Below are positions 38,601 to 60,232 of a DNA stretch of 64,000 nt, one piece after another. The notes beneath the pieces were generated by a model, which did not search any database, was not told the DNA's origin, and saw nothing but the letters and a program-made list of their open reading frames with translations. Source of the DNA: Bartonella sp. M0283 (lineage in GTDB: Bacteria; Pseudomonadota; Alphaproteobacteria; Rhizobiales; Rhizobiaceae); contig NZ_JACFSK010000001.1 of NCBI RefSeq assembly GCF_016100455.1, forward strand, positions 62,001 through 126,000, written 5' to 3'. A program made the translations under genes and the position numbers. Numbering within the stretch: the stretch's first letter is position 1; each line of letters opens with the position of its first letter.

Positions 38601-41600
38601 GACGGCCATTGGGAAACGAGTTTGCAGGGACTTGACGACGGGACCCATAAAATCTGGGTTCAGGCAACAGATGCCGGCGGCAACAAGAGTGCGGCAACTG
38701 CACCTTATCCGTTCGTGGTGGATACAACTCCACCGGATAGTCCCGGACGTGCGACAATTACAAGCGATGTTGCCCCTAATAAGTCGGTGATCTCCGATGA
38801 CAGCACCGATCACGGAACAACAAACGACACAACGCCCACCTTCTCGGGAAAGATAGATAAATCGCAACCGGGTGATGTCGTGACCATTTATGATGGTGAC
38901 AAAGCAATCGGCGAGACGAAAGTTAATCCGGATGGTTCGTGGTCGTTCACACCGACAACGCCGCTTGATAAAGGCGAACATCATTTTACCACCTCGGTAA
39001 AAGATGCGGCCGGCAATGAAAGCAATCGCGGCTTTGGAACCGATATAACAATAGCCGATAACGGAAATACCGTAACGGTTGATTATGCCGTTGACAATGT
39101 GGATCCGATTAAAGGCCCGATTGCCAATGGCGGTCATACCGATGATACAACGCCCGAACTTCACGGCACGGCACCGGCAGGCTCGACTGTCACCGTTTAT
39201 AGCGATGCTACAAAACAAACGCGCATTGGCGACCCGTGCATTGTTGGTTCGGAGGGCAAATGGTCTATCGGTTTGACGGAACAGGCCGCCGGCGAACATA
39301 ATTATTATGTCGAGGCAACAGGCACCGATGGCACTGTTCTTGCCGGACAGGATTTCAAACTGAATATTGATAATGGTGAACCTGACCGGCCGACAATTAC
39401 CGAGGTTACTGATGATGTCGGCCTTATTCAGGGTGCAGTTGCAAATGGTGGCTCCCGTGTTGACAATGGCACGACCGACGATACCAATCCGACGATTAAA
39501 GGCACCGCACCGAAGAACAGCCTTGTTATCATCTATGATAATGGCAAGGAAATCGGCCGCGTTTATGCCGATGGCGAGGGCAAATGGTCTTATACAACCG
39601 GAGCAATGCTCACCGAAGATGACCACAAGTTTACGGCCGTTTCGCAAAATGCCGAGGGAAAGACCAGCGGCGTTTCAAACGAATATGTTGTTACGGTCGA
39701 CATTACCGCGCCCAAGCAGATAACCGGCGAGACTGTTCAGGATAATGTTTTGCCGAATAGTGCCAATGGTGAAGATGGCCCGGCCATTATCAAGGTCAAT
39801 CAAAATGATCACACCAATGATGATAGCCCGATCTTTAGCGGAACGGCACCAAGCGATGCCAAGAAAGTGCGCATCTATGACAATAATAAATTAATTGCCG
39901 AAGTGGATGTGGATAGCGATCATACTTGGTTCTGGGAAGCGGGTAACAGAAACTCCGATGCCAAGCTTGCCAATGGTTCACACTCGCTGACCGCCCGTCC
40001 GGTGGACGCTGCCGGCAACGAAGGACCGGCATCCGAAGCGCATGCATTTATTGTTGATAAAACGGTTCCTGGCGCCAAGGCAACACTCGACAGCATTACC
40101 GACGATACGGGCTTCGAGAGCAGCGACTTCACCACACAGGATAAAACACTCCTCTTCAGCTTCAAAGTGGATGGAACGCTAAAAGATACCGACAAGGTAC
40201 AAGCCCTCATCAATAATGAATGGTATGACCTTACCTATAATTCCGCCAATGGAAAGTGGGAACTTGACTGGCGAAATAAGCCTGCCCTTGCAGACGGAAG
40301 TTATGTCATCAAGACGCGCGTTATTTCGAGTACCGGCGTTTATGATCATGATGCAACCGACAAGTCGGCAAAAACTGTTGTTATTGATAGTGATGGTTCG
40401 GCTCAACATTCCGAATTTATCGGCTTTACCGGTAAAACCGGTAAAGTCTTCCAGAATGGTGAATATGTCGATGTTACAAATCCTGTTTTGCAGGGTAAAA
40501 TCAGTGGCAATCTTGCCGACCTTGAAGATGGCGCGAAAATCGGCATTTATCGCGATCACGTGCTGTTGGGCTATGTTGAAAAAAGCCAGATCAAACCGGA
40601 TGGTACATTCAGTTTCAAACTGCCCGATGGCAGCTTGACCGACCATCACAGCTATATCTTCACAACGGCGATTGTGTCGAATTCCGGCTATGTCGGAGAG
40701 ATGCACAATGTCGAAGTGCGCGTTGACACAACCGGCGCTGCAAATGTTCCCGATTATGGCAAATCGAACAGGAATAAACCTACAGATACGGATGGTGATC
40801 TAAGTTATACCCAGGCCGTCGCTCTCAATAATAATGGCGAGTGGCAGGTTATTTCCAATTCGAATGTCTGGGTATTCCGTAACAATAGCAACGGCAAGGC
40901 TGACGGTTATTATCTTGATTACAGTCCGGGTGTTGCCGCAAAAACAGTTGACCAGTTCTGGTGGTCGGGCGAGAAAGCACTTTTCGGTTCCTATACAATG
41001 GCCGATTATAACCACGACGGTTATATCGACGTGTGGACAACGAAAGCCTGTTACGCCTATTACACGACAGCCGCCTATGTCGGGACGGGAGATAATCAAT
41101 GGAATTATGTCGATGTGAAATATATCGACATGTTCAATGGTACCGCTATTGAAAACCACCTTGGTGGTATTGCCACGTTCGATATGAATGGCGACGGCTA
41201 TCTTGATGTCATTCAGGGTGATTCCGGTATTGATTCAGGATCTGTCTTCTTGAACAAGGGAGCGACTTCGTCAAGCCTGAACGGCAGCCAGTTTATCGGC
41301 ATGGGGCGGCAATTCGGTGGTAACCAATCCCCACTCACGACCAATTTTATGACCGATCACCATGTGTCGGCAATCGACCTTGACAATAACGGGACGATTG
41401 ATTTTGCAGGTAACGGGCTGATTAATGATACGACAGGCGTTTCCGGTTATGGCAACAACTGGTATCAATTGATGACGCTCATGAACAGTGGCGTTTCTGC
41501 CCCTAACGGAGTTTATGGCGCCAACTGGTCTGTCAACCAGCATTTTGACGATTCATTGCCGAGTTTCGGTAATGGCTATGATGATTTTATTGGTCAGGAT

Positions 41601-43292
41601 ACTTATAAGAATACCATTTCCATGACATGGGCCGATTATAATGGTGATGGTTATATGGATTTATTCCTTGCCAAAAATCATCACGGTTGGCATTCCAACA
41701 GGGAAAGCCAGATCTTTTATAATAAAGGTGACGGGACCGGACAATTGCGTAATGCTGTCGGCTTGGGAGACGACCTTGACGGTCGCTGGTCGGTTGCAAT
41801 CGACTGGGATCACGATGGCAAAATGGATATTCTGGAGGTTCCAGGCTACGGCCAGAGTGCTGCGGGAACGAAGCTCTGGCATAATGGCGGCGTTGGTCTT
41901 GATGGTGCGGTCAAATGGGATAATTGGGATATTTTCGGTGCACAGGGTGGCCGTCTTTCCAGTGCCAATGGCGATGTCGATCCAAAGAGTATCACTGGCA
42001 GTGGTTATAACTACATTTATGGTATCGGGCTTGTAGACTATGATTGGGATGGTGCACTTGATGTCACCATGCAGCGTGACAACACCCAATCATCGCTCAT
42101 TTTGTCAAACAAAAACAAGGTCGGTTATGGAACGTCATTGCATCTTCGCATCACCGACAAGGATGGCGCCAATGTGTTCTATAACAATACCGTCCAACTT
42201 TTTGACTCTTCGGGAAAACTCGTCGCCGTGCAGGTTATCAATGCACAAGGTGGCATGGGTGTTTCCGACAATACAGGCCTTGTCCATTTCTATGGCTTGA
42301 AAGAAAATGAAACCTATTCGGTTGTTGTCTTGCGCAATACCGAGGGGCAATCGAATGATGTTGGCGGCATTGCCCACACCCGTACAACAGATACAAACGG
42401 TTATGGCAAAGAAAATACGATAGAAAACGTCAACACCTCGTGGACAGGTCTTAAAGCTGTTGAAGCCGACCATGCCTATATCCTGAACGCCAATAAAGAT
42501 GGCGACACGGTGACAACCGGTGCGGGAAACAATGATCCGGCAACCCAGGGCTATCGTCCGGGACTTGTCGGCACCGGTTATAATGATGTTTTCACTGCCG
42601 AAGCCGGTAGCCAGAGTTATTCCGGTGGCGGTGGCTGGAGAAATGATGCCGGTGAAAAATATTGGCAGGCGAGCGGTGGTGAAGACATTGTCGACTTTGG
42701 AAAATCGACTGTCGGTGTCACTGTCGATTTGAGTAACAGCGGCTATCAGTCGACGGGCTTCAACAACGCCAAGTTCAATGACATTGAAGGTATTTACGGC
42801 AGTAAATTCGACGATACTTTCACCGGTAACAAAGGCGACAATTTCTTTGACGGTCGCGCTGGTGACGACACCTATCACCTTGAAGCCGGTGGTCATGATC
42901 TTCTGCTTTATCGCCTGATCCAGCAGGATGACGCAACCGGTGGCAACGGCCATGATACAGCCTATGGCTTCACGGTTGGCACCTATATCGACGCCGACAA
43001 ATCCAAGATTGATGCCAATGCCGACCGCATTGATGTCAAGGACTTGTTGCAAGGCTACCGTGCCGATGCCGATGGTGCTGCCCATTACGACGACAAAGGC
43101 AAAGCCCAGATCGACTGGGGTGATAATATTAAGGACTTCCTTTCAACCCGTGTCGAAAACGGCAATACGATTTTGAGTATTGACCGTGATGGCAAGGGGG
43201 ATGCCTTCCAGTCAGCGGATATCCTCACCTTGAATGGAGTGAATACCGATCTCGAAACATTGTTGGCCAACCACCAGATCATCATCGGATGA
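23649..43292 (+). CDS. Giant Ig-repeat adhesin with beta-propeller head and RTX/type I secretion end
   Basis: A 6547-residue secreted surface protein. Residues 1-120 resemble the BapA prefix domain (NDLVINFADGKTVRIKNFF), followed by a Gly/Ala stretch and an Asp/His linker. Residues about 158-5694 hold about 49 bacterial Ig-like domains of roughly 95-120 residues, each with a 'DDTTPTLSGKG...VKIYD' strand and an 'AGN.S' end. Residues about 5697-6155 carry six DxNxDGxxD calcium loops (DYNHDGYID, DMNGDGYLD, DYNGDGYMD and others), as in FG-GAP/VCBS propellers, then an ASPIC/UnbV-like domain (about 6158-6225). RTX-type repeats follow near 6309 and 6384 (DDTFTGNKGDNFFDGRAGDD), and the last about 100 residues look like the T1SS target of the VCA0849 class. 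There is no Sec signal. The secretion genes follow directly. The function is most likely attachment or biofilm formation. Confidence 0.93.
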   Translation: MTKSDIIKQHPVVQLTEKSGSVDSGGKPLNFVLTADKESISNYSRAGNDLVINFADGKTVRIKNFFNAGHPICNLIFIDDGATWLTDFSQALSANGDGVVDSNVLYEEITDKSGYSNGVLLGILGAAGGISGAAAEASNDDNNHHDDGISTPPAAPLYSVINNNDPKNLLAVKNGGYLNDTTPLLSGKGTPGNTIRIHIDGFPDMTTKVNPDGTWSFELPKLTDGHYIAKVTQIDANGQVSKEANYEFNVDTHAPDAPTIAHGFDDVSPNPVGSDGTLKDGDYTNDKTPTLTGKGEPGSTVKIYDTDDKGNKTLVGTGTVGKDGNWSVETNKALSEGHHKLNTTLTDAAGNESAGTDFNINIDSSKPAKIENFRVEDNYPEITGALPLTGGTTDDETPVFAGKIGKDVTQIIIKLNGHEFVIDRNTLNEAGPQRGAGEKVIRDDGTFAFRLPQAYKLTNGNYNYEVYAKNKVGNESDHINGNFAFDRTIPPAIDSQNLDVIDNVGALTGSYKNWPKHQSDNAKVTDDNHATFKGKVPAGYDIGKISHINIYDGDTKIGEAKVNADGTFEYSQEWTKGQHRLSAAIVNKAGTIGSHSNPDDFNFFIDSDIAPAPTIEGVDDSKGAPHIDGHATNSNSFALNGNGPANGKVTVKLYDHNGKQVLDSTGHPVEWTTDVSAGGKWSVDTGDLSHLNPPLGDGQYSFKADAVDAKGTATNPSNVHNLERDTLAPDAPKISQGTDNVAPDPEGKDGTLHDGDYTNDKTPTLTGKGEPGGTVNIYDTDETGNRTLVGTGTVGNDGNWSVETTKPLSDGHHKLVTTVTDAAGNEGAGSEFNVNIDTSNPGKIEDFRVQDNYPEITGDLPLVGGKTDDDTPVFAGKISKDATHLIIKLNGHEFVIDRNTVNETGSQRGAGEKVIRDDGTFAFRLPQAYKLVNGHYDVEAYAKNSVGNESEHIKGDFDFERGVPPTINKEGLDLVDNVGSVTGSYKDWAIRDSDHKKVTDDNHAVFKGKIPSGYDISNVDHVNIYDNGKKIGEAKVKNDGSFEYSQEWLQGDHRLSAAIVNKFGTVGEQSNPDDYDFWVDLNRAGPPSIQQVQDDQGHYHESGYPTGSNSFFVTGGGPSSGKVTLRLYDKDGNPVKNFKGEPLEWTADVSKEGSWSVNTGDLSHLNPPLKDGDYSFKASAVDSKGTPTDPSGPHWLDRDTTAPDTPDAPKAMDNVGDKQGEITAGATTDDDTPTLSGKGKKGEVVKIYDNDGKTPIGETVVGDDGTWSFTPNPPLKGGDHNLTTTLTDAAGNESERSGAVKITVDKSGVEIFADGAHDDEGDIRKDVHDHGVTDDRTPTLYGRGTPNQTVVITDENGTEIGRTKVDGEGNWQLELPSQAGDNQEVTHTYHAKITNAAGNSQSVDFHLTIDTKAPDAPAIDKVIDNVGNKDNATSNTNGNKELHSGDTTDDTTPTFSGKGTVGDIIKLYDGNKLVGQTTVKEDGTWSVSPTSPITDLKGTHEFTTTATDPAGNESNHSGKFLLGFDTEPVPSIGSGKDEVDLIDDAGSIVGSYRDGEWATRQGQHGEKIVITDDTTPTLKGQLPTDLLNSGRISTINIYDNGQLLTRIPVSGDGRWEYTPTLKAGNNHNFEVAYENKAGVEGPHTSFPFVLDMATVGQTSIDSATTGDDNAPYTWGNSTKENIFHLQGSAPANSTITVYLKDDSGNVIHTFETTTSDGSGSWSETVDLSTVSVETRKAIADGRYSFVADARNDAGAVGAPSGDSWINRDTTAPEKPDIVKAEDNSGDKHGSIEEGGTYDEDSPHLSGKGEKNSIVTIYDNDKVIGETTVHEDGTWSWIPTTPLKAGAHSITTTLTDAAGNVSDKSDPLGFNLDLTSPEVKIDHAVDDYNKTAKDIANGGSTNDATPKLVGRGTPGQTVTIFDKTTGSTYTTIVKSDGTWECQLSAQQNAGEDKIHEYIASLTNNAGNKVEHQFSLHIDTTAPATPQLVEVIDNVGNDPATYPDGNRSLKNNDITDDTTPTFNGKGVAGDIIKLYTVNDKGERTLIGQTVVHEDGTWSVTPTVALTDDPNHSPTKYTFIVTETDSVGNESNPTDGYDLFIDRTAPVLDDSTIKLVDNKETNVGDFPSWLEKDDGKGGKIKLTNDDTPTMSGRAISSDTQSVNIYDNGKLIGSAKVDGNGDWSFTPPTGHGLGDGVHEWIARPVDKGGNEGQPTPAYKFEVDTKGPTGTLGSDIGLWDDEGPQTGEFDGANGTTAWNTNDQNHKVTDDKTPEIKGKLPAGSDVTKVHIYVDGALAGIVDVAADGTWSYTPHLSSGTHKIDARPADDAGNEGEGKTWNFDIAGAAPGMPAITGIYNNDGKQIDASHPDGKFIDKNQFTNDATPLIKGTGDTGSFINIYIGDKLVAKGVKVGGDGHWAVEIDPSLAGILPNGESWQIRASASDSAGQESDKTGFWPINVDTLKPLTPDLPKLDDHVGDKQGDVAQNTTIDDKAPTIHGKAAEGSVVVNIYDTVDGKTKLVQTVMSDAEGNWSYTPTDLGQGNHSITTTYTDKAGNISDKSPAFDFNIDSSAILVSINYAADNAGHIVKDLANGETTDDTTPTLVGSTSRNTVVTIKEGEKVIGTVTSDEHGNWSFELPKQTNGHHVYTAVVTAQNGNNAHSDFALDIDNTPPEAPDITRVQDDVPLKTDDLVSGDKTNDTKPTFYGEGNPGDTITIYDEIDGKLVKIGTATIGNDHQWVCTVDELLPGAHHFKLQTTNKLGVDSEKYTEYDLTVKTDVPTETTRLVSINEDRGLSDSDFKTGDDSLVFKFGVNEKLPAGYKVQVNIDGTWYDATYDETDGYWYYDHSNTHLAEGVHKVYGRVVDDAGNVKEGPAQDVAIDKTAPIGGDYTIVIDSYTDNVNEEGGSKSRGNGEATNDNTPTLNGHTSGMKAGDYVTVQVKIGNDWVTIGTATVDESGNWKFDVKGIPGGTAKDHLDDGYHEFRGVITDEAGNLGQASSGFGLDVATTPPPAINESGLDLFDDQLPTTGTIKKGTTTDDSRPTLKGAAHSVDPTKVGSINLYDNGTLIGTGKVNSDGSWSVEPTVPLRQGNHSFVAKPVDHAGNEQSQGTTAWDFNFVGHAPATPSIINVLDDKGETIQKNAVTNDSTPLIKGTGTTGSTVHIYVDDVEVATAKVKDDGTWETTLPTLSNPATDRNGTSHNIKAQAVDPAGNWSHETGEYPIIVDRQAPDAPDAPTAKDDQGNTITGTTADSTPTLSGKVNGNQPGDKVNIYQDGVKVGEAKVNDQGEWSWTPKNPLGKGNHQFQTSLSDAAGNESGKGTATNITVDTSTVKVSIDYLVDDQAPLESHVTNNNKTNDRTPLIVGKATPNSDVILTYTDANNQVHQLAKVRTDGEGNWSYQVKDSEKLDAGHYVIHAETTDASGGKSTADFNFDIDITNNQKPSIDRVTDDVGAVQNDVGSGESTDDTTPTIIGSGAKPYQTVNIYDQEENSNGEKGESKLIGSAIADGEGKWSFTPPSPLGGDTTHHLSATTVDEVGNESEHSSNYDVIVDIKSPEPIANDTVSVTDDVKNDANDFTGKLEKDQYTNDNRPEYSGKAPSDAKTVNIYDNGKLIGSTKVKEDGTWSFTPDETHKLSEGKHTLTARPVDNAGNEGTDCQGSEFIVDTIAPGAVPTISGVSNDTGPKDDDLITQDRNPTIFVTVNQPLADNEHVEISLDDGLTWVTASYNKDTGKYYYAVGHELTDQVYHVKARVVDAAGNVGQNTTRDLTVDNTPPLDGYTVTIDKFHDDVENNVGDYPSGTATNDKTPLLKGTVKGAHEGDVVHLYYRDSQGNLHSVADNIHLTSNGDGTYSWQYQFSELAEGNYQYVAVVKDAAGNEGASSNDFLLTVDVTGPLWGNANSIKLVDDQQPDIGDIPHSGGVTDDNYPEVQAGAGTVTGAAGGIVELYDGNTKIGEGLIEADGSFKIVPNKAITPGQHRFHLVAVDPAGNRTPLQDVEWNFNFAGHAPGTPSITNIIDDYNNPEGKSVYLQKGQSTDDATPTLHGMGTKGTRIHIFKNGQEINTDDNPVIVGDDGTWTFKLPAAYALKDTSTDGLGTHYNFAVQAVDQTGVPSSKTGEYPIVYDNHAPNQPDVPSLQSDQEPGIGTIENNGTTPDQTPTFSGTVQNPQVGDKVTIYNKVDGQYVKIGETTVDPSSGKWSWTPENPLAKGDYEFATSVTDAAGNESAKSQSTTVTVDPTNVDVSILYAVDDQKKSTEDYTGRISDGGLTNDATPDLHGRATPNSTVTIYTDVGGVRTEFGKVYADSNGDWAFVWPQDKQLPDGSYTIVAEATLPNNSTKSDSFKLVVDTQNDHVPEIASASDDVGANQSDDLASGAASDDTTPTLKGHGAEPNGIVNIYDTVNGETHLVDSVKADSNGDWEYSVQSPLPEGEHHFQATSVDAAGNESAKSPVFDYTIDLTAPDALQSVNLTDDVPETTGTISNNGMTNDDRPTYSGSATADIDKVFIYDHGVKIGEAKVVNNNGQYTWSYTPDTALANGDHSFQAKPVDAVGNIGIPTGAWNFKVLTGTIATKPTIVGISQDTGFDANDYITSDTQPTIYITTSAKLNAANGEKVQINIGGQWYDTEFDEASGRYFFRPVTALPASANGTNYIIQTRIIDNAGRTSDIDEKTMTLDNQGPDGTITLDKFVDNVGVEQDFSSHTEKNYTDDRTPELHGTVSGAKSGDYVVIYLADKDGNILKDENGKPIKLGSIHPDGTNWKFTPNLDEAHYPDNKDYYFVAVLEDKAGNQGPKSPPLGLSLTTEGPDWSGSKDFDVYDDQAPDIGIIGENNKPHVTDDNRPTVKGKAGSLDPAEVDSVLLYDSDPSDPNAKPIGKKTINSDGSWEVEPDSPLMPGHHRFWVVPVNHAGVVGKTKSDVFEFDLIGHAPGTPSVTQIGHDDDPNVVFPDNQIQQNGITRDNTPFIKGTGTKGSYVKIYDQFNGEDRLLETVKVDNDGHWETSLQGLDDGTHKIWVQATDAGGNKSAATAPYPFVVDTTPPDSPGRATITSDVAPNKSVISDDSTDHGTTNDTTPTFSGKIDKSQPGDVVTIYDGDKAIGETKVNPDGSWSFTPTTPLDKGEHHFTTSVKDAAGNESNRGFGTDITIADNGNTVTVDYAVDNVDPIKGPIANGGHTDDTTPELHGTAPAGSTVTVYSDATKQTRIGDPCIVGSEGKWSIGLTEQAAGEHNYYVEATGTDGTVLAGQDFKLNIDNGEPDRPTITEVTDDVGLIQGAVANGGSRVDNGTTDDTNPTIKGTAPKNSLVIIYDNGKEIGRVYADGEGKWSYTTGAMLTEDDHKFTAVSQNAEGKTSGVSNEYVVTVDITAPKQITGETVQDNVLPNSANGEDGPAIIKVNQNDHTNDDSPIFSGTAPSDAKKVRIYDNNKLIAEVDVDSDHTWFWEAGNRNSDAKLANGSHSLTARPVDAAGNEGPASEAHAFIVDKTVPGAKATLDSITDDTGFESSDFTTQDKTLLFSFKVDGTLKDTDKVQALINNEWYDLTYNSANGKWELDWRNKPALADGSYVIKTRVISSTGVYDHDATDKSAKTVVIDSDGSAQHSEFIGFTGKTGKVFQNGEYVDVTNPVLQGKISGNLADLEDGAKIGIYRDHVLLGYVEKSQIKPDGTFSFKLPDGSLTDHHSYIFTTAIVSNSGYVGEMHNVEVRVDTTGAANVPDYGKSNRNKPTDTDGDLSYTQAVALNNNGEWQVISNSNVWVFRNNSNGKADGYYLDYSPGVAAKTVDQFWWSGEKALFGSYTMADYNHDGYIDVWTTKACYAYYTTAAYVGTGDNQWNYVDVKYIDMFNGTAIENHLGGIATFDMNGDGYLDVIQGDSGIDSGSVFLNKGATSSSLNGSQFIGMGRQFGGNQSPLTTNFMTDHHVSAIDLDNNGTIDFAGNGLINDTTGVSGYGNNWYQLMTLMNSGVSAPNGVYGANWSVNQHFDDSLPSFGNGYDDFIGQDTYKNTISMTWADYNGDGYMDLFLAKNHHGWHSNRESQIFYNKGDGTGQLRNAVGLGDDLDGRWSVAIDWDHDGKMDILEVPGYGQSAAGTKLWHNGGVGLDGAVKWDNWDIFGAQGGRLSSANGDVDPKSITGSGYNYIYGIGLVDYDWDGALDVTMQRDNTQSSLILSNKNKVGYGTSLHLRITDKDGANVFYNNTVQLFDSSGKLVAVQVINAQGGMGVSDNTGLVHFYGLKENETYSVVVLRNTEGQSNDVGGIAHTRTTDTNGYGKENTIENVNTSWTGLKAVEADHAYILNANKDGDTVTTGAGNNDPATQGYRPGLVGTGYNDVFTAEAGSQSYSGGGGWRNDAGEKYWQASGGEDIVDFGKSTVGVTVDLSNSGYQSTGFNNAKFNDIEGIYGSKFDDTFTGNKGDNFFDGRAGDDTYHLEAGGHDLLLYRLIQQDDATGGNGHDTAYGFTVGTYIDADKSKIDANADRIDVKDLLQGYRADADGAAHYDDKGKAQIDWGDNIKDFLSTRVENGNTILSIDRDGKGDAFQSADILTLNGVNTDLETLLANHQIIIG
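24414..27260 (+). repeat. Tandem 1,422-bp duplication (four-Ig block) within the adhesin gene
   Basis: The block starting at 24414 (GATGCGCCG...) recurs from 25836, an offset of 1,422 bases or exactly 474 codons. Both copies encode the same four Ig domains in the same order, with matching unusual segments such as IKLNGHEFVIDRNT, RGAGEKVIRDDGTFAFRLPQ and DTGDLSHLNPPL. Many silent and some coding differences show that the duplication is not very recent. Confidence 0.85.
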
Positions 43293-43300
43293 TCCCCATT

Positions 43301-43327
43301 GATGGCGGATCAACTTCGCCATCTTTT
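43301..43327 (+). terminator. Hairpin with T-run just after the adhesin stop
   Basis: GATGGCG (43301-43307) pairs with CGCCATC (43317-43323) around a 9-nt loop, followed by TTTT. It sits 9 bases after the adhesin stop. It may reduce read-through into the secretion genes, and it argues against the ATG at 43302, inside the stem, as start of the next gene. Confidence 0.6.
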
Positions 43328-43379
43328 CCGAAACCAAGCTCGGGTCTTCAAAAATCGCTTTATAGCGTGGAGAAAAAAA

Positions 43380-45185
43380 GTGCTGGATGTCAGACGCGTG
43401 AAAAAAATTGCAATTATCGGTGGGGGGCTGTCCGGCTGGCTCTCCGCTCTGATGTTGCGGCGCGTATTCAGTGCCAATGTCGATATTGCCGTTTTCGAGG
43501 ACCCGAATTTCCCTTGTTTCAAAGGGGGCGAAGGTGGGCTTCATCATTTTATCGCAATGGTTCGTCGTCTGAACATTGATCTTCAGCATTTTGTCCACAC
43601 GACAAAGCCGACATTCAAGATGGGCAATGTCTTTCGCGGTTTCCGCAATGGCAGTGCGCGCGACATTTTCTACAATCTTCATCCGGGCATGAACGATCAT
43701 CTTGAAGAACTTGATTTTTCCCTTTACGGCTTTTGGCCTTATCTTGCCACTGCCATTGCTTCGGGCGTTCCGCTCGAAACAATTTTTCCGGCTTTCGCAT
43801 TGATTGAACAGAAGGCTTCCCAGATCGAAGCCACTGCCGTTTTCAATACACATAGAAGCGGTGTGGAACCGACTTTGCATTTTGATTGTCGTCTGGTGGT
43901 CGATTATCTCAAAAAAATCGGCATAGAGCGGCAGATCCGTACATTCGCGAGAAAAGTCGTCGACTTCGAGATTTCACCGGATGGTCATGTAGACGCCCTT
44001 AAACTCTCTGGTGGAGATATTTTCAACGTCGATTTCGTTATCGACGCTTCAGGTCTCAGACATTTGCTCGTCGGGCAAAAATTGAATGGTAAATGGCATT
44101 CTTTTTCCGATAGTCTGCTCACCAATTGCGCAATCGATTTCAGGCTTGCAAATAACGGGGCTAGAATTGACCTCGTTAGCGAATATTCTGCAACCCCGGC
44201 CGGATATATCTGCCGGATACCGTTAAGCGACCATTATAGCGGCATGCATGTTTTTTCAAATAATCATACCGACTGGTTACGCGCTAAAAGAGAAGTGGAA
44301 TTGCTTTTCGGGTCACCCGTCGCAGCGCGGCCGGTTATTACATTCGATCCGGGAAATTTTGAAAAAGCATGGCTAGGAAATGCCATAGCAATCGGTGTTT
44401 CCTCGGGATATCTCGGACCTTTGCAAGCAAGTGCTACGGAAACCACAATCCATCAAATTGCACGATTGGAACGCATATTATTGGAAAGTAACGGCGTTAT
44501 TGGCGAGCATATTATTGAAGATTACAATAAATCCAATGACGGGGCTTTCAAAGCCAATGCCGATTTTTTAAGGATGCATTTTGATGGCGGGCGACGCGAT
44601 ACAGAGTTCTGGCGCGATGCCGCATCGGCAGGGCGTTCTTCACACTATCAGGAAAGGCTTGCCTGTTTTGCCGAACGCTTGCCGCGCTTCATCGATTTTG
44701 AAAATTACGGCGCCGGTTTCCCTCCTTTATATCATTTACTTGATTGGCTTTTTATTGCTTCTTCACTTGGAATTGTGAGCAAGCTTGCGGCTTTGAACGA
44801 GCTTGAGGGACTTCCCCTCAATATCCGCGATAAAATGGAACGCTATGGACGCAATATTTTGGCGCGCGGCAATGCACAAAATGAATTGGGGGCAAAAAGC
44901 GAATTACCTCTGCAAAACGGGTTAAGTGCAGAAGGCGAATTAAGTGCACAAAATAAATTAAGCGCGGAAAACGGATTAAACGCGCAAAGTAAATTCAACG
45001 CACAGAAAAATGTGCCACTTGTTTCCGGACACTCTTTCGGGCAGGAGCCGCTTCATGAGGAGGGAAAAATCAAGAGAGCCGGACAAAATTGGCAACCGGT
45101 TGGTTACCAGTTCCAATTTGTCAATCATGCGCGGTTTTCCCAAACGGGAACGGAACAGGAAAAAGGGGGTATTCATGCGGGTTAG
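43380..45185 (+). CDS. Flavin-dependent halogenase-like FAD protein inside the secretion operon
   Basis: A 601-residue protein of the tryptophan-halogenase family. The FAD-binding GGGLSG is at residues 14-19, KGGEGGLHHF at 48-57 matches the GEAT.P loop, PTFKMG at 77-82 places Lys80 where the catalytic lysine (K79 of PrnA) is expected, and GPLQASATETTIHQ resembles the PLESTSIH flavin segment. GGRRDTEFWRDA is also family-like. The diagnostic WxWxIP is changed to YICRIP (276-281), so halogenation is uncertain. The start GTG at 43380 is chosen for GTGGAG seven bases upstream; ATG 43302 is an alternative. The last about 75 residues are a hexapeptide-repeat tail. The 3' end overlaps the tolC-type gene by 11 bases, so it is coupled to the secretion system. 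It may modify the adhesin or a small molecule. Confidence 0.75.
   Translation: MLDVRRVKKIAIIGGGLSGWLSALMLRRVFSANVDIAVFEDPNFPCFKGGEGGLHHFIAMVRRLNIDLQHFVHTTKPTFKMGNVFRGFRNGSARDIFYNLHPGMNDHLEELDFSLYGFWPYLATAIASGVPLETIFPAFALIEQKASQIEATAVFNTHRSGVEPTLHFDCRLVVDYLKKIGIERQIRTFARKVVDFEISPDGHVDALKLSGGDIFNVDFVIDASGLRHLLVGQKLNGKWHSFSDSLLTNCAIDFRLANNGARIDLVSEYSATPAGYICRIPLSDHYSGMHVFSNNHTDWLRAKREVELLFGSPVAARPVITFDPGNFEKAWLGNAIAIGVSSGYLGPLQASATETTIHQIARLERILLESNGVIGEHIIEDYNKSNDGAFKANADFLRMHFDGGRRDTEFWRDAASAGRSSHYQERLACFAERLPRFIDFENYGAGFPPLYHLLDWLFIASSLGIVSKLAALNELEGLPLNIRDKMERYGRNILARGNAQNELGAKSELPLQNGLSAEGELSAQNKLSAENGLNAQSKFNAQKNVPLVSGHSFGQEPLHEEGKIKRAGQNWQPVGYQFQFVNHARFSQTGTEQEKGGIHAG
44874..45017 (+). 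repeat. 18-bp coding repeat, eight hexapeptides A-x-x-x-L-x
   Basis: Eight consecutive six-residue units near the end of the halogenase-like protein: AQNELG, AKSELP, LQNGLS, AEGELS, AQNKLS, AENGLN, AQSKFN, AQKNVP. The period is exactly 18 bases. The spacing does not match the left-handed beta-helix consensus; a helical or disordered tail is likelier. Confidence 0.85.
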
Positions 45186-46668
45186 CCTCTATCGCAATCG
45201 TCAGTCCGCTGTGCAGCAGAAAATGGCTTTATGGGCAAGCAGTGCGCTTTTGTGTTTTGTGTTGGTCGGGGTTACCGGTTGCACGACACCACGCTCGAAC
45301 CAATCCCGTATTGTGCGTCATCAACAAGCAAAAACAGCACCTCTCCCCGATGGTCAAAAGGCAAAAACTCTAAGCTATAAGGAATCGGGTTCCGAAAATC
45401 GGAAATTGACACATGCGCCATCATCGACAAAACCCGATGATGCTGTGACAACAATTTCGACTGACCGGATAGGCTTGAAAGATGCTGTCGGTATTGCTTT
45501 GGCCCGCCATCCGGATATCGGAAGGGCAAATGCAATTGTTGCGCAAAGCAAAGCGCAGATTGCGATTGAAAAGGCAGCCTGGTACCCGACATTCCAATAT
45601 AGCCTCAATCCCGGTTATAACCGTTATTATAATTCCGGTAACAATAATAATGATGCCGGCAATGTGCGCGGTACGGTTGGCGCTTCGCAACTCATCTATG
45701 ATTTTGGCAGAACGTCAAGTCGCATAGGTGCAGCCCGGGCCACAAACGAAAAACAGACCCATCAATTGAATAGCACAATGGAAGATGTGGCTGAGAATAT
45801 TGCCAATATTTTCGTTGAACTTTCCGCTGCACAGGAATTGATTGGCGCGGCAGAACGTGAAACCCGGCTTTTGAGTGATACCCATAACAAGATCAGCCAA
45901 CGCGTGCGTGCAGGTCTTTCCGACGCCTCCGATCTCAATCAGGCCGAGGTCGGGATGCAACGGGCAAAATCCGATCTTTTACAAGCAACAACGCGCTTTG
46001 ATGTAGCAGCCGGAAAATTTTCGCAAATTACCGGTTTTCGCCCGCAAAAAGTGAAAACTCTCGCTGAAACAACACGCTTTATGGACAGTTTGAGCAATGG
46101 CGAAAACGACATTGACAATACGCCGGCAGTTCTTGCCGCAGAAGCGGAAGTCAAAGCATCCCAACAGCGGCTACGTTTGGCCAAAGCCGAACGGTTTCCC
46201 GCCGTCAGTCTCGGCGTGAGCCAGTCCGGTGCTACCGGACAGCGCAATGCAACCAATGATAGCACTTTTGTCGGTCTGCAATTGAGCGGACAATTTTCTT
46301 CCGGAAAGCGCGAAAAATACCAGATAGAAGCAGCAGAAGCAGAATTGAATGCTGCCCGTCAGGCGGCCGAAAACGAAAAGCTTGTATCGCGCACAACCAG
46401 AGGTGCGGCTGAAACGGAAGAAAGGGGCGCCACCGAGCGTATGGATAATGCCCGCCAGATGATGAATTTGTCGCTTTCTTCGCGCGATCTCTATTGGCAG
46501 CAATATACATTGAACAAGCGTCCATTAACCGATGTCATCAATGCCGAACGCGACGCGTTCGTTGCTGAAAGTGACCAGATTACAGCTTTATCCGATCGCC
46601 TCTATGCAAAAATCAAAGCCTATTATGCAGGTGGGCAATTGGTCAGTCGTTTGCGTGAGCGTAGTTGA
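45175..46668 (+). CDS. TolC family outer-membrane lipoprotein of type I secretion system 1
   Basis: A 497-residue outer-membrane channel. The start at 45175 has AAAAGGGGG upstream; the frame runs open another 55 codons into the preceding gene without family features. The signal sequence ends in a lipobox (VGVTGC, Cys at about 36), followed by a long Ser/Lys-rich linker. The TolC repeats follow: LKDAVGIALARHPDIGRANA at the first helix, and YPTFQYSLNPGYN and QLIYDFGRTSSRI in the first barrel segment, with the second half repeating the pattern (AEAEVKASQQRLRLAKAERFPA). It overlaps the halogenase-like gene by 11 bases and is followed after 10 bases by the ABC exporter. It forms the exit duct for the giant adhesin. 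Confidence 0.88.
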   Translation: MRVSLYRNRQSAVQQKMALWASSALLCFVLVGVTGCTTPRSNQSRIVRHQQAKTAPLPDGQKAKTLSYKESGSENRKLTHAPSSTKPDDAVTTISTDRIGLKDAVGIALARHPDIGRANAIVAQSKAQIAIEKAAWYPTFQYSLNPGYNRYYNSGNNNNDAGNVRGTVGASQLIYDFGRTSSRIGAARATNEKQTHQLNSTMEDVAENIANIFVELSAAQELIGAAERETRLLSDTHNKISQRVRAGLSDASDLNQAEVGMQRAKSDLLQATTRFDVAAGKFSQITGFRPQKVKTLAETTRFMDSLSNGENDIDNTPAVLAAEAEVKASQQRLRLAKAERFPAVSLGVSQSGATGQRNATNDSTFVGLQLSGQFSSGKREKYQIEAAEAELNAARQAAENEKLVSRTTRGAAETEERGATERMDNARQMMNLSLSSRDLYWQQYTLNKRPLTDVINAERDAFVAESDQITALSDRLYAKIKAYYAGGQLVSRLRERS

Positions 46669-46678: not shown

Positions 46679-49198
46679 ATGACAAGTTTTGATCATTTTA
46701 CCGGTAAATTTGCTTTTCCCCAGAATGGAACAAATGCGTTTTCGCCTGAAAAAAAAGAAAATTACGAAGAGAAAAACACAATTGAACCTGGAAGGCCGGT
46801 TCAATCTGCAATCAATGATGAACTTAAAAACGGAAGCCGCGAACCCCATAGGACATTGCCCGAAAATGGCGGAGAAATGTCGGGTAAAAGCGCCGGAAAA
46901 CAGCAAAAATTGAATGGTGTTGTCGAACCCTTCGGAGCAAAAGATAAGCGCGAAAAAACAGGCCCGAAAACATCTGACGGGAATGGCGATATATCGCAAA
47001 AACAAAGAAAAACCGCACATTCTGCAAGCGAAGATAATGAAAACACAAACAGCTCCTTGTTAACGGGAAAATGGGTTGATGTGCTGCTGCTTGCCGCCCG
47101 TCAGCTCAATATACCGGTTTCAAACGAACTTGTGCGTAATGCTGCAAAATGGAGCAACGGAGCACAAAAAGACGAAACAATTGTCGATATTGCCCTTAGC
47201 TGCGGTTTGGCTGCAACATTTGTCGAAGTCGAACCAACAGCAATTTCTTCAGTTATGATGCCGGCTATTCTTCAGATTGATGGCGAGCTCGGTTTGCTCA
47301 CGGCCAAAGACAGGGCAGTCGGCATTGTCGATTTTGTTATCGACAACAATGTTTTCAGAAAACGCATTGCTTTTGATACGTTCACACATGGCAAACAAAA
47401 GATTCATCTTCTCGTTCTCGAACGCCATTTGAGTGTCCATGACGACCGGCTTGATGAATATCTGCAAAAAAAACCAAAATCATGGTTCAAAGGGTTATTT
47501 GTATCCAATTGGCCGATATTTTTGCAACTGGGTCTCGGTTCGCTCGTCGGTAATTTGCTCGCAATCGGAACATCCTTGTTTGCTATGCAGGTTTGGGACC
47601 GCGTTGTACCTGGAAGATCGACCAATACATTATGGGTTCTGGCTTCCGGTGTGGCCTTGGCATTGCTTCTCGAATTCATTTTGAAGACAACACGTGTCGC
47701 CGTGACCGACCATTTCGGCAAACAGGCCGATCTCAAATTATCGGCAATGTTTTACGCGCGCGTTTTGAATATTCGAAATGATGCAAGACCGCGTTCTCCC
47801 GGAACATTGATTTCGCAATTGCGCGATCTCGACCAGATGCGGGAACTTTTAACGTCGACAACGCTGGGTGTGCTCATCGACCTTCCCTTCGTCGTATCAT
47901 TTCTCTTTATTATCTGGCTCATTGGCGGCTATGTCGTGTTGGTTCCCATTGCGGCTATTCCTTTCATCGTGCTTCCCGGAATTTTTGCCCAAATCCCGCT
48001 TGCGAAACTTTCCAATCAGGGGTTGGAAGAATCCGCCATGCGCAATGCTATTTTGATGGAGTCGATTTATCGTGCCGAAGATATCAAATTGCTTCAGGCC
48101 GAACCGCGTTTTCGCCGTTTATGGGGCGAGGTCAATAAAGTAAGCGGCAATATCAGCCTGAAACAGCGTGAAATTGCTTCCATGCTGATGAATTTTTCCC
48201 AAACGATGCAGCAAATTGCCTATGTCGGCGTGGTGATTGCCGGTGTTTACGGCATACTCGATGCCAAATTGTCTTTTGGTGCTGTTCTTGCCTGTTCCAT
48301 TCTCACAAGCCGCACAATTGCGCCCCTTTCACAGATACCGGCAATCTTGAGCAAATTACAAAATGCCCGTGTGGGGAAAAAAGGGCTTGATGGTTTACTC
48401 ACTTTGCCGGTCGATCACGACAGTGACAAAGATTATTATCATAAACCCGTCTTGCGGGGAAAATACGACTTGCAGGATTTGGTCTATCTCTACGGGCCTC
48501 AGGAAAAGCCGGCTCTGATCATACCGCGTCTTCATATAAAACCGGGAGAAAAAATTGCGATCCTCGGGCGTGTGGGGGCTGGAAAATCAACACTGCTGCG
48601 TTTGTTTGCCGGCCTTTCTGCACCTGTTCAGGGGCGTGTTCTCCTTGATGATACGCCGGTCGGGATGATCGACATTGCCGATATAAGGCGGGATGTCGGG
48701 GCAATGTTTCAAGAATCCAGCCTGTTTTATGGCACTTTGCGGGATAATCTTCTGGCGGCCAATCCTTTGGCAACAGACGAAGATATTTTGAAAGCCATGC
48801 ATCTTTCCTGTGCCGACCAGTTGTTGCTCAACCAGCCGCACGGGCTTGATCTCAAATTACGCGAAAGCGGGGTTGGTCTTTCGGGTGGGCAAAAACAGAC
48901 ATTGATGCTTGCCCGTTTATTTTTACGCTCGCCACATATTATGTTGCTTGACGAGCCGACTGCTTCGCTTGATGAAGCAACAGAGGTTGCAGTCCTTGAA
49001 CGGATGAAATCCTGGATCGGCAATAGGACATTTATCGTGGCAACCCACCGCTATCCGGTCCTGAAGCTGGTTGACCGTATCATTGTTGTCGATAATGGCC
49101 GCATCGTCAGAGACGGTTCGAAAAACGAAATGCTCGGTCTTAACCGCGCCGCTTTTGCGACCGCAAGTGCTCCCAATGATAATCAGGCGAGGGGCTGA
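46679..49198 (+). CDS. Type I secretion ABC transporter (permease/ATPase, LapB-like)
   Basis: An 839-residue inner-membrane exporter. The first about 120 residues are a polar, Lys/Glu/Asn-rich extension not usual for the family. A degenerate C39-like peptidase domain follows from about residue 128 (WVDVLLLAARQLNIPVSNEL) without the catalytic Cys, as in other adhesin exporters. Six membrane spans lie between about 270 and 560. The nucleotide-binding domain has Walker A GRVGAGKST at 630-638, signature LSGGQKQT at 734-741 and Walker B MLLDEPT at 755-761, then the switch His in ATHRYP. The start at 46679 is 10 bases after the TolC stop; the frame is open further upstream inside tolC. It powers export of the adhesin directly from the cytoplasm. 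Confidence 0.92.
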   Translation: MTSFDHFTGKFAFPQNGTNAFSPEKKENYEEKNTIEPGRPVQSAINDELKNGSREPHRTLPENGGEMSGKSAGKQQKLNGVVEPFGAKDKREKTGPKTSDGNGDISQKQRKTAHSASEDNENTNSSLLTGKWVDVLLLAARQLNIPVSNELVRNAAKWSNGAQKDETIVDIALSCGLAATFVEVEPTAISSVMMPAILQIDGELGLLTAKDRAVGIVDFVIDNNVFRKRIAFDTFTHGKQKIHLLVLERHLSVHDDRLDEYLQKKPKSWFKGLFVSNWPIFLQLGLGSLVGNLLAIGTSLFAMQVWDRVVPGRSTNTLWVLASGVALALLLEFILKTTRVAVTDHFGKQADLKLSAMFYARVLNIRNDARPRSPGTLISQLRDLDQMRELLTSTTLGVLIDLPFVVSFLFIIWLIGGYVVLVPIAAIPFIVLPGIFAQIPLAKLSNQGLEESAMRNAILMESIYRAEDIKLLQAEPRFRRLWGEVNKVSGNISLKQREIASMLMNFSQTMQQIAYVGVVIAGVYGILDAKLSFGAVLACSILTSRTIAPLSQIPAILSKLQNARVGKKGLDGLLTLPVDHDSDKDYYHKPVLRGKYDLQDLVYLYGPQEKPALIIPRLHIKPGEKIAILGRVGAGKSTLLRLFAGLSAPVQGRVLLDDTPVGMIDIADIRRDVGAMFQESSLFYGTLRDNLLAANPLATDEDILKAMHLSCADQLLLNQPHGLDLKLRESGVGLSGGQKQTLMLARLFLRSPHIMLLDEPTASLDEATEVAVLERMKSWIGNRTFIVATHRYPVLKLVDRIIVVDNGRIVRDGSKNEMLGLNRAAFATASAPNDNQARG

Positions 49199-49200
49199 CT

Positions 49201-50370
49201 ATGAATGTCGATTCACTGGTAAAAGTCCATGGTATCAATGAGAGAGCAAGATTGATCCTTTGGATCATTATCGCGATGATTGTCATTTTCATGATCTGGT
49301 CCTATTTCGCCGTTTTGAACGAAGTAGCCATTGGCGAGGGCAAAGTGATGCCCGCTTCCAAAGGCCAGATTATCCAGAATCTCGAAGGCGGCATTCTTGC
49401 AGAACTTTCGGTAAGAGAGGGCGACGAGGTCCGCGAAGGGCAGGTTCTTGCCGCTCTTGATCCGGCAAAGGCAAAGTCCAATGTCGATGAAACTCTGGCC
49501 AAGATCGTTGCCCTTCAGGCGCGGGCGGCACGTCTTTTTGCCGAAATGAATTATCAGAACGATGTCAATTATCCTGAAGAAATTCGGGATAAAAAAGATG
49601 TCATTGACCGCGAAACAGAGCTTTTTTTCACCAATCGTCAGGCTTTCAGGGAAAATGTGCTTAATCTGACGGAACAGTTGAAACTTGCGCAAGACGAGGT
49701 AGAAATTGCCAAACCTTTGCTGAAAACAGGTGCCGCAAGCGAGGTCGAGGTGTTGAAATTGCAGCAGAATGCGGCCGAATTGTCATCAAAACTTGCTGCG
49801 ACGAAAAATGAATATTTTGTCGCTCTGCGCGGTGATTATACCAAAACAATGGCCGATCTCGAGCCGCTATTGAAAACCAGAGAAGGATTGGCCGACCAGT
49901 TGACGCGCACGGTCATTCGTTCTCCGACAAATGGGATTGTCAAAGATATCCGCGTTACAACGATTGGCGGGGTTGTTGCCCCTGGCGGAACATTGATGGA
50001 AATTGTGCCTTTGGGTGACCAGCTTCTCATCGAGGCAAAATTGAACCCGCGCGATATCGCCTTCATTCACAAAGACCAGCCGGCAAATGTCAAAATCACT
50101 GCTTATGATTCAGCAATTTACGGTTCGCTTCCCGGCCATGTGCAGATGGTTTCGCCCGATTCAATCGAAGATGATGTCGACAAGCGGATTTATTATTATC
50201 GGGCCTATATTCTGACCGATCACAGCTATCTTGAAACCAAAGACGGAAAACGTCACCAGATTATTCCGGGAATGGTTGCGACCGCAGAAATCAGTACCGG
50301 TCAAAAAACCGTAATGGATTATTTGATAAAACCGCTCAATCGGGCAAAAGAAGCGTTGCGAGAACGGTAA
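49201..50370 (+). CDS. HlyD family periplasmic adaptor of type I secretion system 1
   Basis: A 389-residue membrane fusion protein joining the ABC exporter to the TolC channel. It has an N-terminal cytoplasmic segment, one membrane span (about residues 19-42, ILWIIIAMIVIFMIWSYFAV), a lipoyl half (GQIIQNLEGGILAELSVREG), a long helical hairpin (about 90-230), the second lipoyl half (VIRSPTNGIVKDIRVTTIGG) and a beta-barrel domain. The Gly-Gly-Ile pattern agrees with LapC/AprE-type adaptors. It starts two bases after the ABC gene and is the last gene of this operon. Confidence 0.92.
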   Translation: MNVDSLVKVHGINERARLILWIIIAMIVIFMIWSYFAVLNEVAIGEGKVMPASKGQIIQNLEGGILAELSVREGDEVREGQVLAALDPAKAKSNVDETLAKIVALQARAARLFAEMNYQNDVNYPEEIRDKKDVIDRETELFFTNRQAFRENVLNLTEQLKLAQDEVEIAKPLLKTGAASEVEVLKLQQNAAELSSKLAATKNEYFVALRGDYTKTMADLEPLLKTREGLADQLTRTVIRSPTNGIVKDIRVTTIGGVVAPGGTLMEIVPLGDQLLIEAKLNPRDIAFIHKDQPANVKITAYDSAIYGSLPGHVQMVSPDSIEDDVDKRIYYYRAYILTDHSYLETKDGKRHQIIPGMVATAEISTGQKTVMDYLIKPLNRAKEALRER

Positions 50371-50614: not shown

Positions 50615-53600
50615 ATGATCAACATTCCAAAGCTGCTCAGGCACTCGATTGAACGACAAAAATCTCGTCCGAATTCAGAGCTACGCCAGCTTATCTATGA
50701 AAAGACACGTTTGGCTATCAAATCGAAGCTGAATGAGATGAATGCGCCCGATTTCGTCCAGCGTTCCTATATGTTGAGGTTGGAGGCTGCAATATGCGAG
50801 GTGGAGGCTTCTTATCTTTTACGGCCAGAATATTTTGTATTGGAGGAAAATCGGGTTCCCTGTCATTTTGCCTATCGGGCATATTTACCGGATTATTTCG
50901 GTACAAGGCGCAATGTGGCGGTTGACCCCGGCCGGTTGCGGCAATTGGCTTCCGGCCATAATATGTCCAGATATTTGTCGTTTGAAAACAATGAACCGTC
51001 AATGCTTGACGCCGGGCTTTTCGATTTCGGAGAACGTAAAGCTGCGCCAAATCGTGCACAAGGCTTAACCGATAATCCGCATTTTATCGATTTTGCCGCC
51101 CGAAGAGCTTCGCGGCAAGGCGAAGGTAACCAATCGCCGGTCATCAACAATCGTGATTTGTCCCGCGAACGGAATTTATATGTTGAAGATGATAATGAAA
51201 TCGAAGCCTTTATCGAAGGCAGACAAAGTAGATTGAACCCGGCTTCCGGACGGCAAACAAATTTACAATCGGTCAATGCCCGCAACCTGTTTTCAGAAGC
51301 CGGAGAACAGCAAATTTCTCATGGGCAAACATGGCAAATTTCGCAAGGCGAAACACTGCAAAATATGCCACGCCAGCAAAATTTCCAGCGGGGAAATACG
51401 TCTTATAATGGTCTATCCGGTTCGGCCACCAATGGTTCGCGACAGTCTTCATTCAACACCGGCAACGCTCCTTCCTTAAACCGTCAGGCCACAATAGAAG
51501 GTGGACAATCTTCTCCATTGAATGGCGAGCGTGGTGAGAGACCGTCGGTCAATAATATAAACCGGTTTCGTGAAGCCGGTGTCCAAGCAGGTAGAGACGG
51601 GCCTCCCCGATCAATGGAAAAGCCTATGGGGAACCCTCAGACGTCAATAAACGCTACAAAATCGTCTTTACCGAATGCTGAAATTTCAAAAAGACAGCCC
51701 AAAAAGCCGTCGGCAAATGCTCTCCGCTCACAGCCCAATCAGGCAATATCCGGCGCAGGAATGAATGATGGCAAGCGCGCGCCATCGGCTCAACAGGCGC
51801 AACAATCTCCGAATGCCGTCGGCTATGGTAACGCCTTCGGTTACGCTGCCGCCCCCAATGTTTATTTTTTTGATAAAACTGTAGCAGCAGCACAATTTAG
51901 CGTGTCCAATCAGCCCAATCCTGTGGCAAGTCGTAAAATGCCGGTCGATGAACAAATCAAGGAATTGGAACGGCGGTTGTTCAAAAGAGAAACCGTGGTT
52001 AACGCCTCGCCGTTGCCGCGCCCGATAATATCGGCTTCGTCAGGGGGCGGATTATCAAACGGTGGTGCCTCGGCTACCGGCATGAATGGCAGATCTCCGG
52101 AACAGAAAATATTTATCGCGCCTTTTTCCGACAAAGCCGATAACTCTTTTATCAAATCACCATTTTCCTATCCGTCAGTTGAGGGGCGGGCAAGTGTCGG
52201 TACACCGTCAGGGTCGCTTTTCTCCAATGTGCCAGATGATGCGGGTTTTATAAGCACACCACCGGTTCAAATACAGGCTGTCGGGAAAGAGGTAAAAACA
52301 GGCGCAAATCCGGCATCGGAAATCAAAGAGCCTTTGTCGCGTTTCGATAGCAATAATAGCGATATTGGTTATAAAGCTCCTTTGAATAATGAGGCTAAAA
52401 AAGCGTCCTCCAACATTGTCGAAGAAAACACCAATCGCAATCAAACAACACGTCCACAAACCCATTCCGATAACGGAAATCTGTTTACGTTCAATGATAT
52501 AGAACTTGAGAGCGAAATTCCGGACGAGGAGGCAATACAGAGTTTCCTTGGAAATAACAGCGATGTTCTGGAAGATGAACCACCAATTCCGGATTTCATT
52601 GTCAAATATGACAAGCAAGAAGCCGATCAAGATGCCGATCTCTTCGGCCAACGGACAAATAATAAAGCCGCGTCCGACGAAAACGCGAACCGCAACTCTC
52701 GGCTAGAAACTCGGTCGCAATCGAAGTTAGCCGATCAAACGCAGCCCAAGCAATTGGAGCAAGATCTTTTTCCGAAGATTTTGTCTTTTGATGCCCGCCG
52801 CCAAAAAAGGTTCAAGAGACAATCGGCTTATAAAGCTTTGTCACTTGCGATACATGAAAATTTCAAGGGTAAAGGGAGCTTGGCTGCCGGTATTCTGGCT
52901 GCATGTGTATTGTCGAGCGGGGTCTATTATTTCTGGCGCGGTAATGTACCGGTTTTCTCCTCCATCAATATTGGGGATAGCAAGAAATTCGATTTGTCCC
53001 ATACTTCAGCGATTAGCCCTTCGGCTTCAGCTAATCAAGTGACAGAAGCCAATAGCTTAACTAATGCAAATCATGACAGCGCAAATTCTGAAGCGGGAAA
53101 AACACTTTCGAAAGCTTCAAGTTCCGCTATGTCATCCCGGCCGCTCGAGGAAAGACAAAAAGACACCGGTTTGCCGTCGGTGGTTGTCAATCCAAATGGT
53201 GTTCAAAGCTCTTACCAACAAGCAATGTTGGAGCCGTCGAAAACAAACGGTTTGGATGGTGTCAATCCGCAAAATGCACAAATCCAGACAAGGCCGCGTG
53301 CCGATGCCAATATTTTGCTGAAAGAGAAAAATGGACAACAGCGCAAATTACCCGGTTCGGTGGCATGGACGCTCCGGCCGCCCCATAGTGCGGAAAATCC
53401 TTATGACGAAACCGCTCTCGTAGCAGATTTCACAACACAGGATGGTTTGTTCGGCGTTCGCATGAGCATTCGTAAAAATTATCACGAAAACCTCGACGCG
53501 ACGCACTTGATCGATTTATCTTTTTCCAAAACCGGAGGGGGGAATGCCGGTTCGGTTGCCGACGTTCGCGGCATTTATTTTGGCGACAAAACCAATGTTC

Positions 53601-57160: not shown

Positions 57161-57339
57161 TATGTCTTGCAAAAATTTGCCAACTCATTAAAAGGGGCTA
57201 TGATTCTCGTATTGGGAAATTTTGGCGTGCAGATGGGAAAAATTTTTCGCCAATTTAGTTGGTTGACGGAAGAGCCGTTTTTGGCGGTGGGGGTTAGAAT
57301 GGTTTTTCGGTGCAAGCACTGCATCAAAAGAGGTTGTTT

Positions 57340-58707: not shown

Positions 58708-58712
58708 TTCGA

Positions 58713-60230: not shown

Positions 60231-60232
60231 TA

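Follow-up and report, generated by a model that had tools for sequence, protein, structure and literature searches.

We have analysed a stretch of 64,000 nucleotides from Bartonella sp. M0283 (contig NZ_JACFSK010000001.1, positions 62,001 to 126,000; the whole stretch is referred to below as the window) and found that a gene for a protein with the predicted fold of flavin-dependent halogenases (FDHs) is part of the operon of a giant adhesin exported by a type I secretion system (T1SS). Open reading frames (ORFs) and profile searches give the following order on the + strand: a BapA/SiiE-like adhesin of 6547 aa (23649..43292), the halogenase-family gene (43380..45185, 601 aa), a gene for a TolC-type outer membrane channel (45175..46668), an LssB-type ABC gene and a HlyD gene. 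The name HAL is used here for the gene at 43380-45185 and for its relatives. An earlier reading of this DNA, made from the letters alone (the sequence-only reading), had placed HAL between the adhesin and its secretion genes and had noted an 11-base overlap with tolC; the gene order is as described there and so is the overlap, with the tolC ATG at 45175 and the HAL stop at 45185. In our view the HAL product most likely acts on the adhesin, or together with it, prior to export. Our best reading, held with confidence and doubt in equal measure, is that of an adhesin-coupled flavoprotein which ancestrally modified aromatic groups and is now altered.

The pairing recurs within the genus. As a query for co-occurrence we used the C-terminal module of the adhesin (780 aa with FG-GAP, RTX-like and T1SS target parts; 40950..43289, + strand). 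The genome sets searched were drawn samples, and the genomes in them share ancestry and are not phylogenetically independent. A first set of 41 genomes had a HAL match in eight, seven of them of the genus, including the window's own genome (2.68 Mb). The nearest named relative found, Bartonella sp. M0177, has the full order adhesin-HAL-TolC-ABC-HlyD. The module was detected in 8 of 28 genomes of the same genus, in nine copies, and HAL adjoins every one of them (9/9); TolC, ABC and HlyD genes stand behind eight of the nine, the contig of G017 stopping after the ABC gene. The window's family was represented by 346 genomes; 10 of these had HAL-subfamily matches (E<=1e-75), three of the 10 (G000, G013 and G744) being members of the genus. 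One HAL adjoins an adhesin in each of G502, G460 and G554, with no complete TolC-ABC-HlyD set found after the pair in the stretches read; in G478, G501, G565 and G681 HAL is present with no adhesin nearby. The module itself occurred in 3 of 70 family genomes (67 consecutive genomes, to which G554, G565 and G681 were added as HAL carriers), namely in G460 (5 copies), G554 (3) and G502 (1), and the sole copy of G502 adjoins HAL.

The pairing is also seen in Enterobacteriaceae, a label that was inferred from the 90% RpoB identity of G157 to E. coli, which gives the family of G157, and from the adhesin of G1065, 100% identical to that of L027, which is named Enterobacteriaceae. HAL was present in 16 and the adhesin module in 43 of 343 such genomes; all 16 HAL-bearing genomes had the module, versus 27 of the 327 HAL-free ones (Fisher p 2e-16 by genome, and 7/7 versus 18/147 with p 1e-6 by genus, both uncorrected for shared ancestry). 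HAL lies within the adhesin operon in six of the 16 genomes. The order is adhesin-HAL-OmpA-ABC-HlyD-TolC in G916, G779, G998 and G947, and adhesin-OmpA-HAL-ABC-HlyD-TolC in G827, while in G1065 adhesin-HAL-OmpA is followed by the contig end. Adhesin contexts among the 43 module-bearing genomes were read in these six and in 20 chosen regions of 14 others; the latter regions showed two operon types, B (adhesin-OmpA-ABC-HlyD-TolC) and A (adhesin-ABC-HlyD). When enterobacterial HAL was compared with 398 genomes of the phylum, the best match was the window copy (297 bits; the next had 222). HAL was found in 3 of 240 Burkholderiaceae-like genomes and in 0/120 genomes from the family of G141, and blastn with enterobacterial halogenase DNA gave no match in E. 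coli genomes. The search of other adhesin loci that the sequence-only reading had suggested thus returned the same adjacency in all nine module copies of the genus and in six enterobacterial operons; the idea of a one-genome curiosity was rejected, as the adjacency recurs in both groups.

In a tree of 56 proteins, where long branches (G502 among them) call for caution, the operon copies of Alphaproteobacteria grouped with the G460/G554 tandem pairs and with two proteins that the protein search had returned, in a single 19-row set (100/100); the window clade (four genomes, including that of the window) stands on a long branch (0.98). The enterobacterial operon copies fall elsewhere in the tree, five of them together (100/98) and that of G827 with four non-operon copies (100/100). 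Operon copies thus occupy separate parts of the tree, and linkage to the adhesin is seen in two or three places amid unlinked relatives, which may reflect either several gains or several losses. The grouping of all operon copies counts against just four outgroup rows and was given no weight for a single origin.

The assignment to the tryptophan halogenase family made in the sequence-only reading holds: the ORF at 43299-45185 (+) matches PF04820 (Trp_halogenase) with 246-247 bits (cut-off 21), and HAL is the sole PF04820 match in the whole genome at E<=0.001. Its start at GTG 43380, as that reading had it, is well supported, with GGAG 7 bases upstream; relatives mostly start at MLD(L/V)RR, equivalent to the position of this GTG, and the main-frame match of G020 starts at the equivalent residue (the alternative TTG 43299 would give 628 aa). 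Comparison of the AlphaFold2 (AF2) core with PrnA, PyrH, SttH and Xcc4156, the first two of which had been named earlier for this purpose, points to a predicted FDH fold. The earlier description of the motifs was confirmed by alignment to PrnA: the flavin adenine dinucleotide (FAD) motif GxGxxG is kept as GGGLSG, Lys80 (43617..43619, +) aligns to the catalytic Lys79 of PrnA, and WxWxIP is replaced by YICRIP (residues 276-281; 44205..44222, +). Two further changes had been missed. PLQASA stands in place of PLESTG (44418..44435, +), with Gln349 at the position of PrnA Glu346 (the E of PLES, because L345 and S347 flank it) and Gln also in 3/3 other window-clade genomes; the position of PrnA His101 is Asn in the window copy. 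In PrnA the K79A change abolished the reaction and E346Q made it ~100-fold slower (PMC5727139; this and the other papers are cited for the parts of their text that were covered). The Trp4 motif for binding free tryptophan (groups A/B, as given in PMC8269204) was absent from the window translation. Two flavin-reductase-family genes occur elsewhere in the same genome, so that a source of reduced flavin is conceivable. As the catalytic Glu and WxWxIP are lost, ordinary halogenation by the window copy appears unlikely, and an ordinary halogenase was rejected as a candidate.

The state of the active site differs across lineages. All 16 enterobacterial HAL copies retain Lys, Glu and WxWxIP, and the six in adhesin operons read GWMWQIP and FVEPLEATSIGQ. 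Canonical motifs are also seen in the alphaproteobacterial operon copy G006b. Lys and Glu are also intact in G007, G006a, G744 and G013, which read YLWQV(P/T); G003 has GSDIGG, which breaks GxGxxG, and WMSQIP; the operon copies of G460/G554 have GGDIAA, again a broken GxGxxG, and IWQSP; in G502 the catalytic Lys is changed to Arg; in the window clade Glu is gone from all four copies, as are the two Trp of WxWxIP. Since these losses differ between alphaproteobacterial lineages, erosion took different, independent forms. G460/G554 also carry tandem halogenases (L146 8508-11568, L149 9174-12247), in which a motif-poor gene stands next to a near-canonical one. Both are under strong constraint (omega 0.05 and 0.09) and have TolQ/TolR-looking ORFs nearby; they are possibly a pair of active and inactive partners.

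To assess selection, we computed omega by the Nei-Gojobori method for pairs of the four window-clade genomes, with relatives taken as stop-to-stop frames, so that a few pre-start codons are included in pairs without the window. The values for HAL were 0.20-0.42 over the whole gene, 0.14-0.39 in the core and 0.33-0.62 in the tail. This tail, a low-complexity, repeat-like C-terminal stretch of ~95 residues in the window clade (residues 506-601; 44895..45182, +) that is predicted to be disordered, is less constrained than the core. The window copy of HAL is under purifying selection. Omega was 0.09-0.12 for HAL in the sister trio G007/G006/G744, ~0.07 in three pairs of enterobacterial operon copies and 0.18 for the operon copies of G460/G554. 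The window and G013 share 82% identity in the adhesin module and just 46% in HAL. A pseudogene was rejected, with omega <1 and a frame open from the GTG position in the window, G017, G020 and M0177.

We suggest that HAL encodes an accessory protein of FDH fold that is functionally coupled to the T1SS-secreted BapA/SiiE-like giant adhesin. An ancestral form, such as Enterobacteriaceae still have, would most likely have been an FAD-binding enzyme that acted on an aromatic group by oxidation or halogenation; plausibly this group belonged to the adhesin, met in the cytosol as an unfolded chain prior to export. Halogenase catalysis in the window clade appears to be eroded at the general base Glu, WxWxIP and the position of PrnA His101; with this erosion the protein would now carry out an altered flavin chemistry or act mainly by binding. 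The sequence-only reading had suggested that the enzyme may oxidise or halogenate aromatic residues of the adhesin. The coupling to a T1SS operon stands, being recurrent, and halogenation by the window copy is unlikely, given the loss of Glu and WxWxIP; the adhesin may be modified, although no aromatic residue in it was found whose conservation convincingly follows the presence of HAL. A bolder version, in which the halogenase-fold lineage comprises dedicated maturases of giant T1SS adhesins that oxidise or halogenate aromatics of the unfolded chain in the cytosol, the gut-type Bartonella enzyme having shifted to another flavin reaction or a chaperone role, seems to us unlikely, and we put it forward tentatively.

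Several observations weigh against the coupling of HAL to the adhesin or against action on it. We compared the aromatic columns of the adhesin C-terminal module across three sets (13 sequences from HAL-containing operons, 9 taken from genomes that have HAL elsewhere and 9 taken from HAL-free genomes), several of these rows being short, and found the columns about equally conserved with and without HAL; the long repeat region is outside the alignment. There were two weak exceptions. The position of W5960 is aromatic in 10/13 operon-linked, 1/3 unlinked and 1/7 HAL-free sequences (rows with a letter), and that of Y6470 in 12/13, 6/9 and 1/8, respectively; the latter looks like a difference between operon types. 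Within the family, HAL stands beside just one of the five module copies in G460 and one of the three in G554, and no TolC or HlyD match was seen behind the HAL-adhesin pair in either genome. Ten of the 16 HAL-bearing Enterobacteriaceae had no adhesin match within ~8.5-10 kb of HAL, and G876 (full type B operon) and G889 (adhesin-OmpA) have no HAL genome-wide at E<=1e-75. In the three HAL-bearing Burkholderiaceae-like genomes, the stretches covered (one begins at a contig edge) contained neither T1SS nor adhesin matches. Among the 80 nearest named-genome loci, which are mostly distant halogenases, a giant adhesin is directly upstream in just two (L026 and L027). In addition, the constraint on the window HAL is weaker than that on tolC or the adhesin module, and relatives of HAL lie beside nif/nod genes on three Sinorhizobium plasmids; the module was found in 0/4 Sinorhizobium-type HAL genomes tested, where two of the four copies are split frames. 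These nif/nod-adjacent relatives are L106, L107, L108 and L152, the one in S. alkalisoli (L108) being annotated in pieces and that in G565 (L152) being split over several frames.

The alternative that survives best, although we judge it unlikely, is a small-molecule halogenase or oxidase that acts on free indole, tryptophan or another aromatic metabolite (an antibiotic or a signal) and shares regulation with the adhesin as both serve host colonisation. Next to the window gene, annotation shows adhesin and secretion genes rather than biosynthetic ones, and HAL co-occurs with the adhesin module in both Bartonella and Enterobacteriaceae; the nif/nod-linked subfamily members, whose genomes had no module, point the other way. 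The 16 enterobacterial copies, with Lys, Glu and WxWxIP kept, speak for such a role, and the loss of the catalytic Glu and WxWxIP in the window clade speaks against it. Neuvonen et al. 2016 (PMC5156944) suggested an antibiotic-type role for the ant symbiont, and, according to PMC8269204, FDHs that lack Trp4 do not interact with tryptophan; indole was used in assays of such enzymes.

Doubtful, too, is a catalytically dead pseudo-halogenase that binds the adhesin or the T1SS or acts as export chaperone for either, or is the remnant of a heterodimer. The key-residue losses are separate events (Lys to Arg in G502, a broken GxGxxG in G003 and G460/G554, Glu to Gln in the window clade), and omega is <1 where measurable (window clade; G460/G554); the tandem of a motif-poor and a near-canonical copy in G460/G554, at omega 0.05 and 0.09, fits as well. 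Yet GxGxxG and the catalytic Lys are still present in the window copy, and the six motif-complete enterobacterial operon copies suggest that the chemistry was important ancestrally. It is very unlikely that HAL is a bystander, a captured halogenase gene slowly decaying in the operon by chance: its omega in the window clade (0.20-0.42) does exceed that of tolC (0.12-0.22) and the adhesin module (0.14-0.16), the ABC gene having 0.14-0.23, and its disordered tail is variable, but the linkage turns up at separate places in the tree, and 8/8 module-bearing genomes examined in the genus have HAL beside the module.

The neighbouring genes, all on the + strand, were characterized by profile searches. 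The TolC-type product is above the Pfam cut-off for OEP (148 bits) and below that of TIGR01844, type_I_sec_TolC (176 bits, cut-off 225). The type I secretion ABC permease/ATPase of the LssB subfamily (46679..49198, ATG 46679; TIGR03375, 734 bits, cut-off 693) and the HlyD-family membrane fusion protein (49201..50370; TIGR01843, 336 bits, cut-off 209) are both above the NCBIfam cut-offs. The adhesin has matches to BapA_N (41 bits, cut-off 27), to Big_13 at 24129-26300 (186 bits, cut-off 27) and, at its C-terminal target, to T1SS_VCA0849 (21.0 bits, cut-off 17.6). A 1071-aa protein with no Pfam or NCBIfam match (50615..53830) follows hlyD in several, not all, Bartonella copies. Further on, at 57310-62150 of the window, a MotA/ExbB-like gene, a second TolC, a MotB-plug/ZorB-like gene and a second HlyD stand in a row, the MotA/ExbB-like and MotB-plug/ZorB-like matches both being below the Pfam cut-off; these proton-channel-like genes with T1SS parts are reminiscent of SiiA/SiiB of the Salmonella SiiE system. 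On two 18.7-kb plasmids of Bartonella sp. HY761 and HY038 (L211, L243) two short proteins with the adhesin C-terminal module adjoin fimbrial usher/chaperone genes. A Microbulbifer locus (L099) has ABC and HlyD matches a few kb beyond a halogenase pair, with no giant ORF.

With BapA_N, Ig-like repeats, a C-terminal target and adjacent, dedicated TolC, ABC and HlyD genes, the window locus is like the BapA/SiiE systems; we know of no halogenase in the described Salmonella systems of this kind. The sequence-only reading knew of no type I system with such an enzyme, and this is contradicted by Neuvonen et al. 2016 (PMC5156944). In Ca. Tokpelaia hoelldoblerii these authors found the gene for a giant T1SS protein with BIg domains (6177 aa) to be immediately followed by one for a tryptophan halogenase, an organisation conserved in B. 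tamiae and like that of the window. We therefore rejected novelty of the adjacency itself, published in 2016; new here are its wider recurrence, the independent erosion of motifs and the purifying selection on the window copy. Active-site residues and Enterobacteriaceae are not discussed in the covered parts of the Tokpelaia paper (PMC5156944). G502, with an adhesin frame of 6202 aa, is probably Ca. Tokpelaia hoelldoblerii; unlike the window, it has a 794-aa BapA_N and Big-domain protein between halogenase and tolC (L150 6795-9176), and no ABC or HlyD match directly follows. A literature search, with subscription journals largely outside it, gave Neuvonen et al. 2016 as the one relevant paper and none on the wider spread of the pairing, its active-site erosion or its role for the adhesin; in the covered part of PMC11340318 a tryptophan halogenase is named only within a transposon list.

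Compared with the two-component tryptophan halogenases PrnA, RebH and PyrH, the window copy is without the catalytic Glu, WxWxIP, PrnA His101 and Trp4. In lacking Trp4 it is like BrvH and Xcc4156; the latter is its best sequence match in the PDB and, unlike the window protein, retains WMWRIP and PIEST. To our knowledge, FDHs of the BrvH/Xcc4156 type are not linked to adhesins. A precedent is QhpG, a halogenase-like flavoprotein whose operon also codes for an ABC exporter and for the protein that it modifies. This monooxygenase of tryptophylquinone biogenesis dihydroxylates a peptidyl Trp of the cysteine tryptophylquinone (CTQ) precursor and is structurally closest to CmlS (PMC7876137). The QhpG model gave no match to the window protein at E<=0.001 and a weak one to its relative P0070 (26 bits, cut-off 240). 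MibH is among the structural matches of the predicted window protein. MibH and ChlH are FDHs and act on Trp within peptides; for ChlH this is described in PMC12518702, together with halogenation of Trp inside some proteins. Unlike the window system, both have intact catalysis and serve small ribosomal peptides (RiPPs).

The best-known cytosolic modification in type I secretion is lysine acylation of RTX toxins by HlyC-type enzymes. If the adhesin proves to be modified, a step of aromatic oxidation or halogenation would be added to type I secretion, and if HAL is a maturase, a halogenase-family enzyme would be modifying a BIg/FG-GAP adhesin post-translationally; with an unmodified adhesin, HAL would still be a halogenase-fold protein kept under selection despite loss of catalytic residues. 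Either way, a defined candidate substrate is at hand in the adhesin, which makes the question open to direct test, and enterobacterial relatives with complete motifs, at loci of the same kind, offer the natural comparison.

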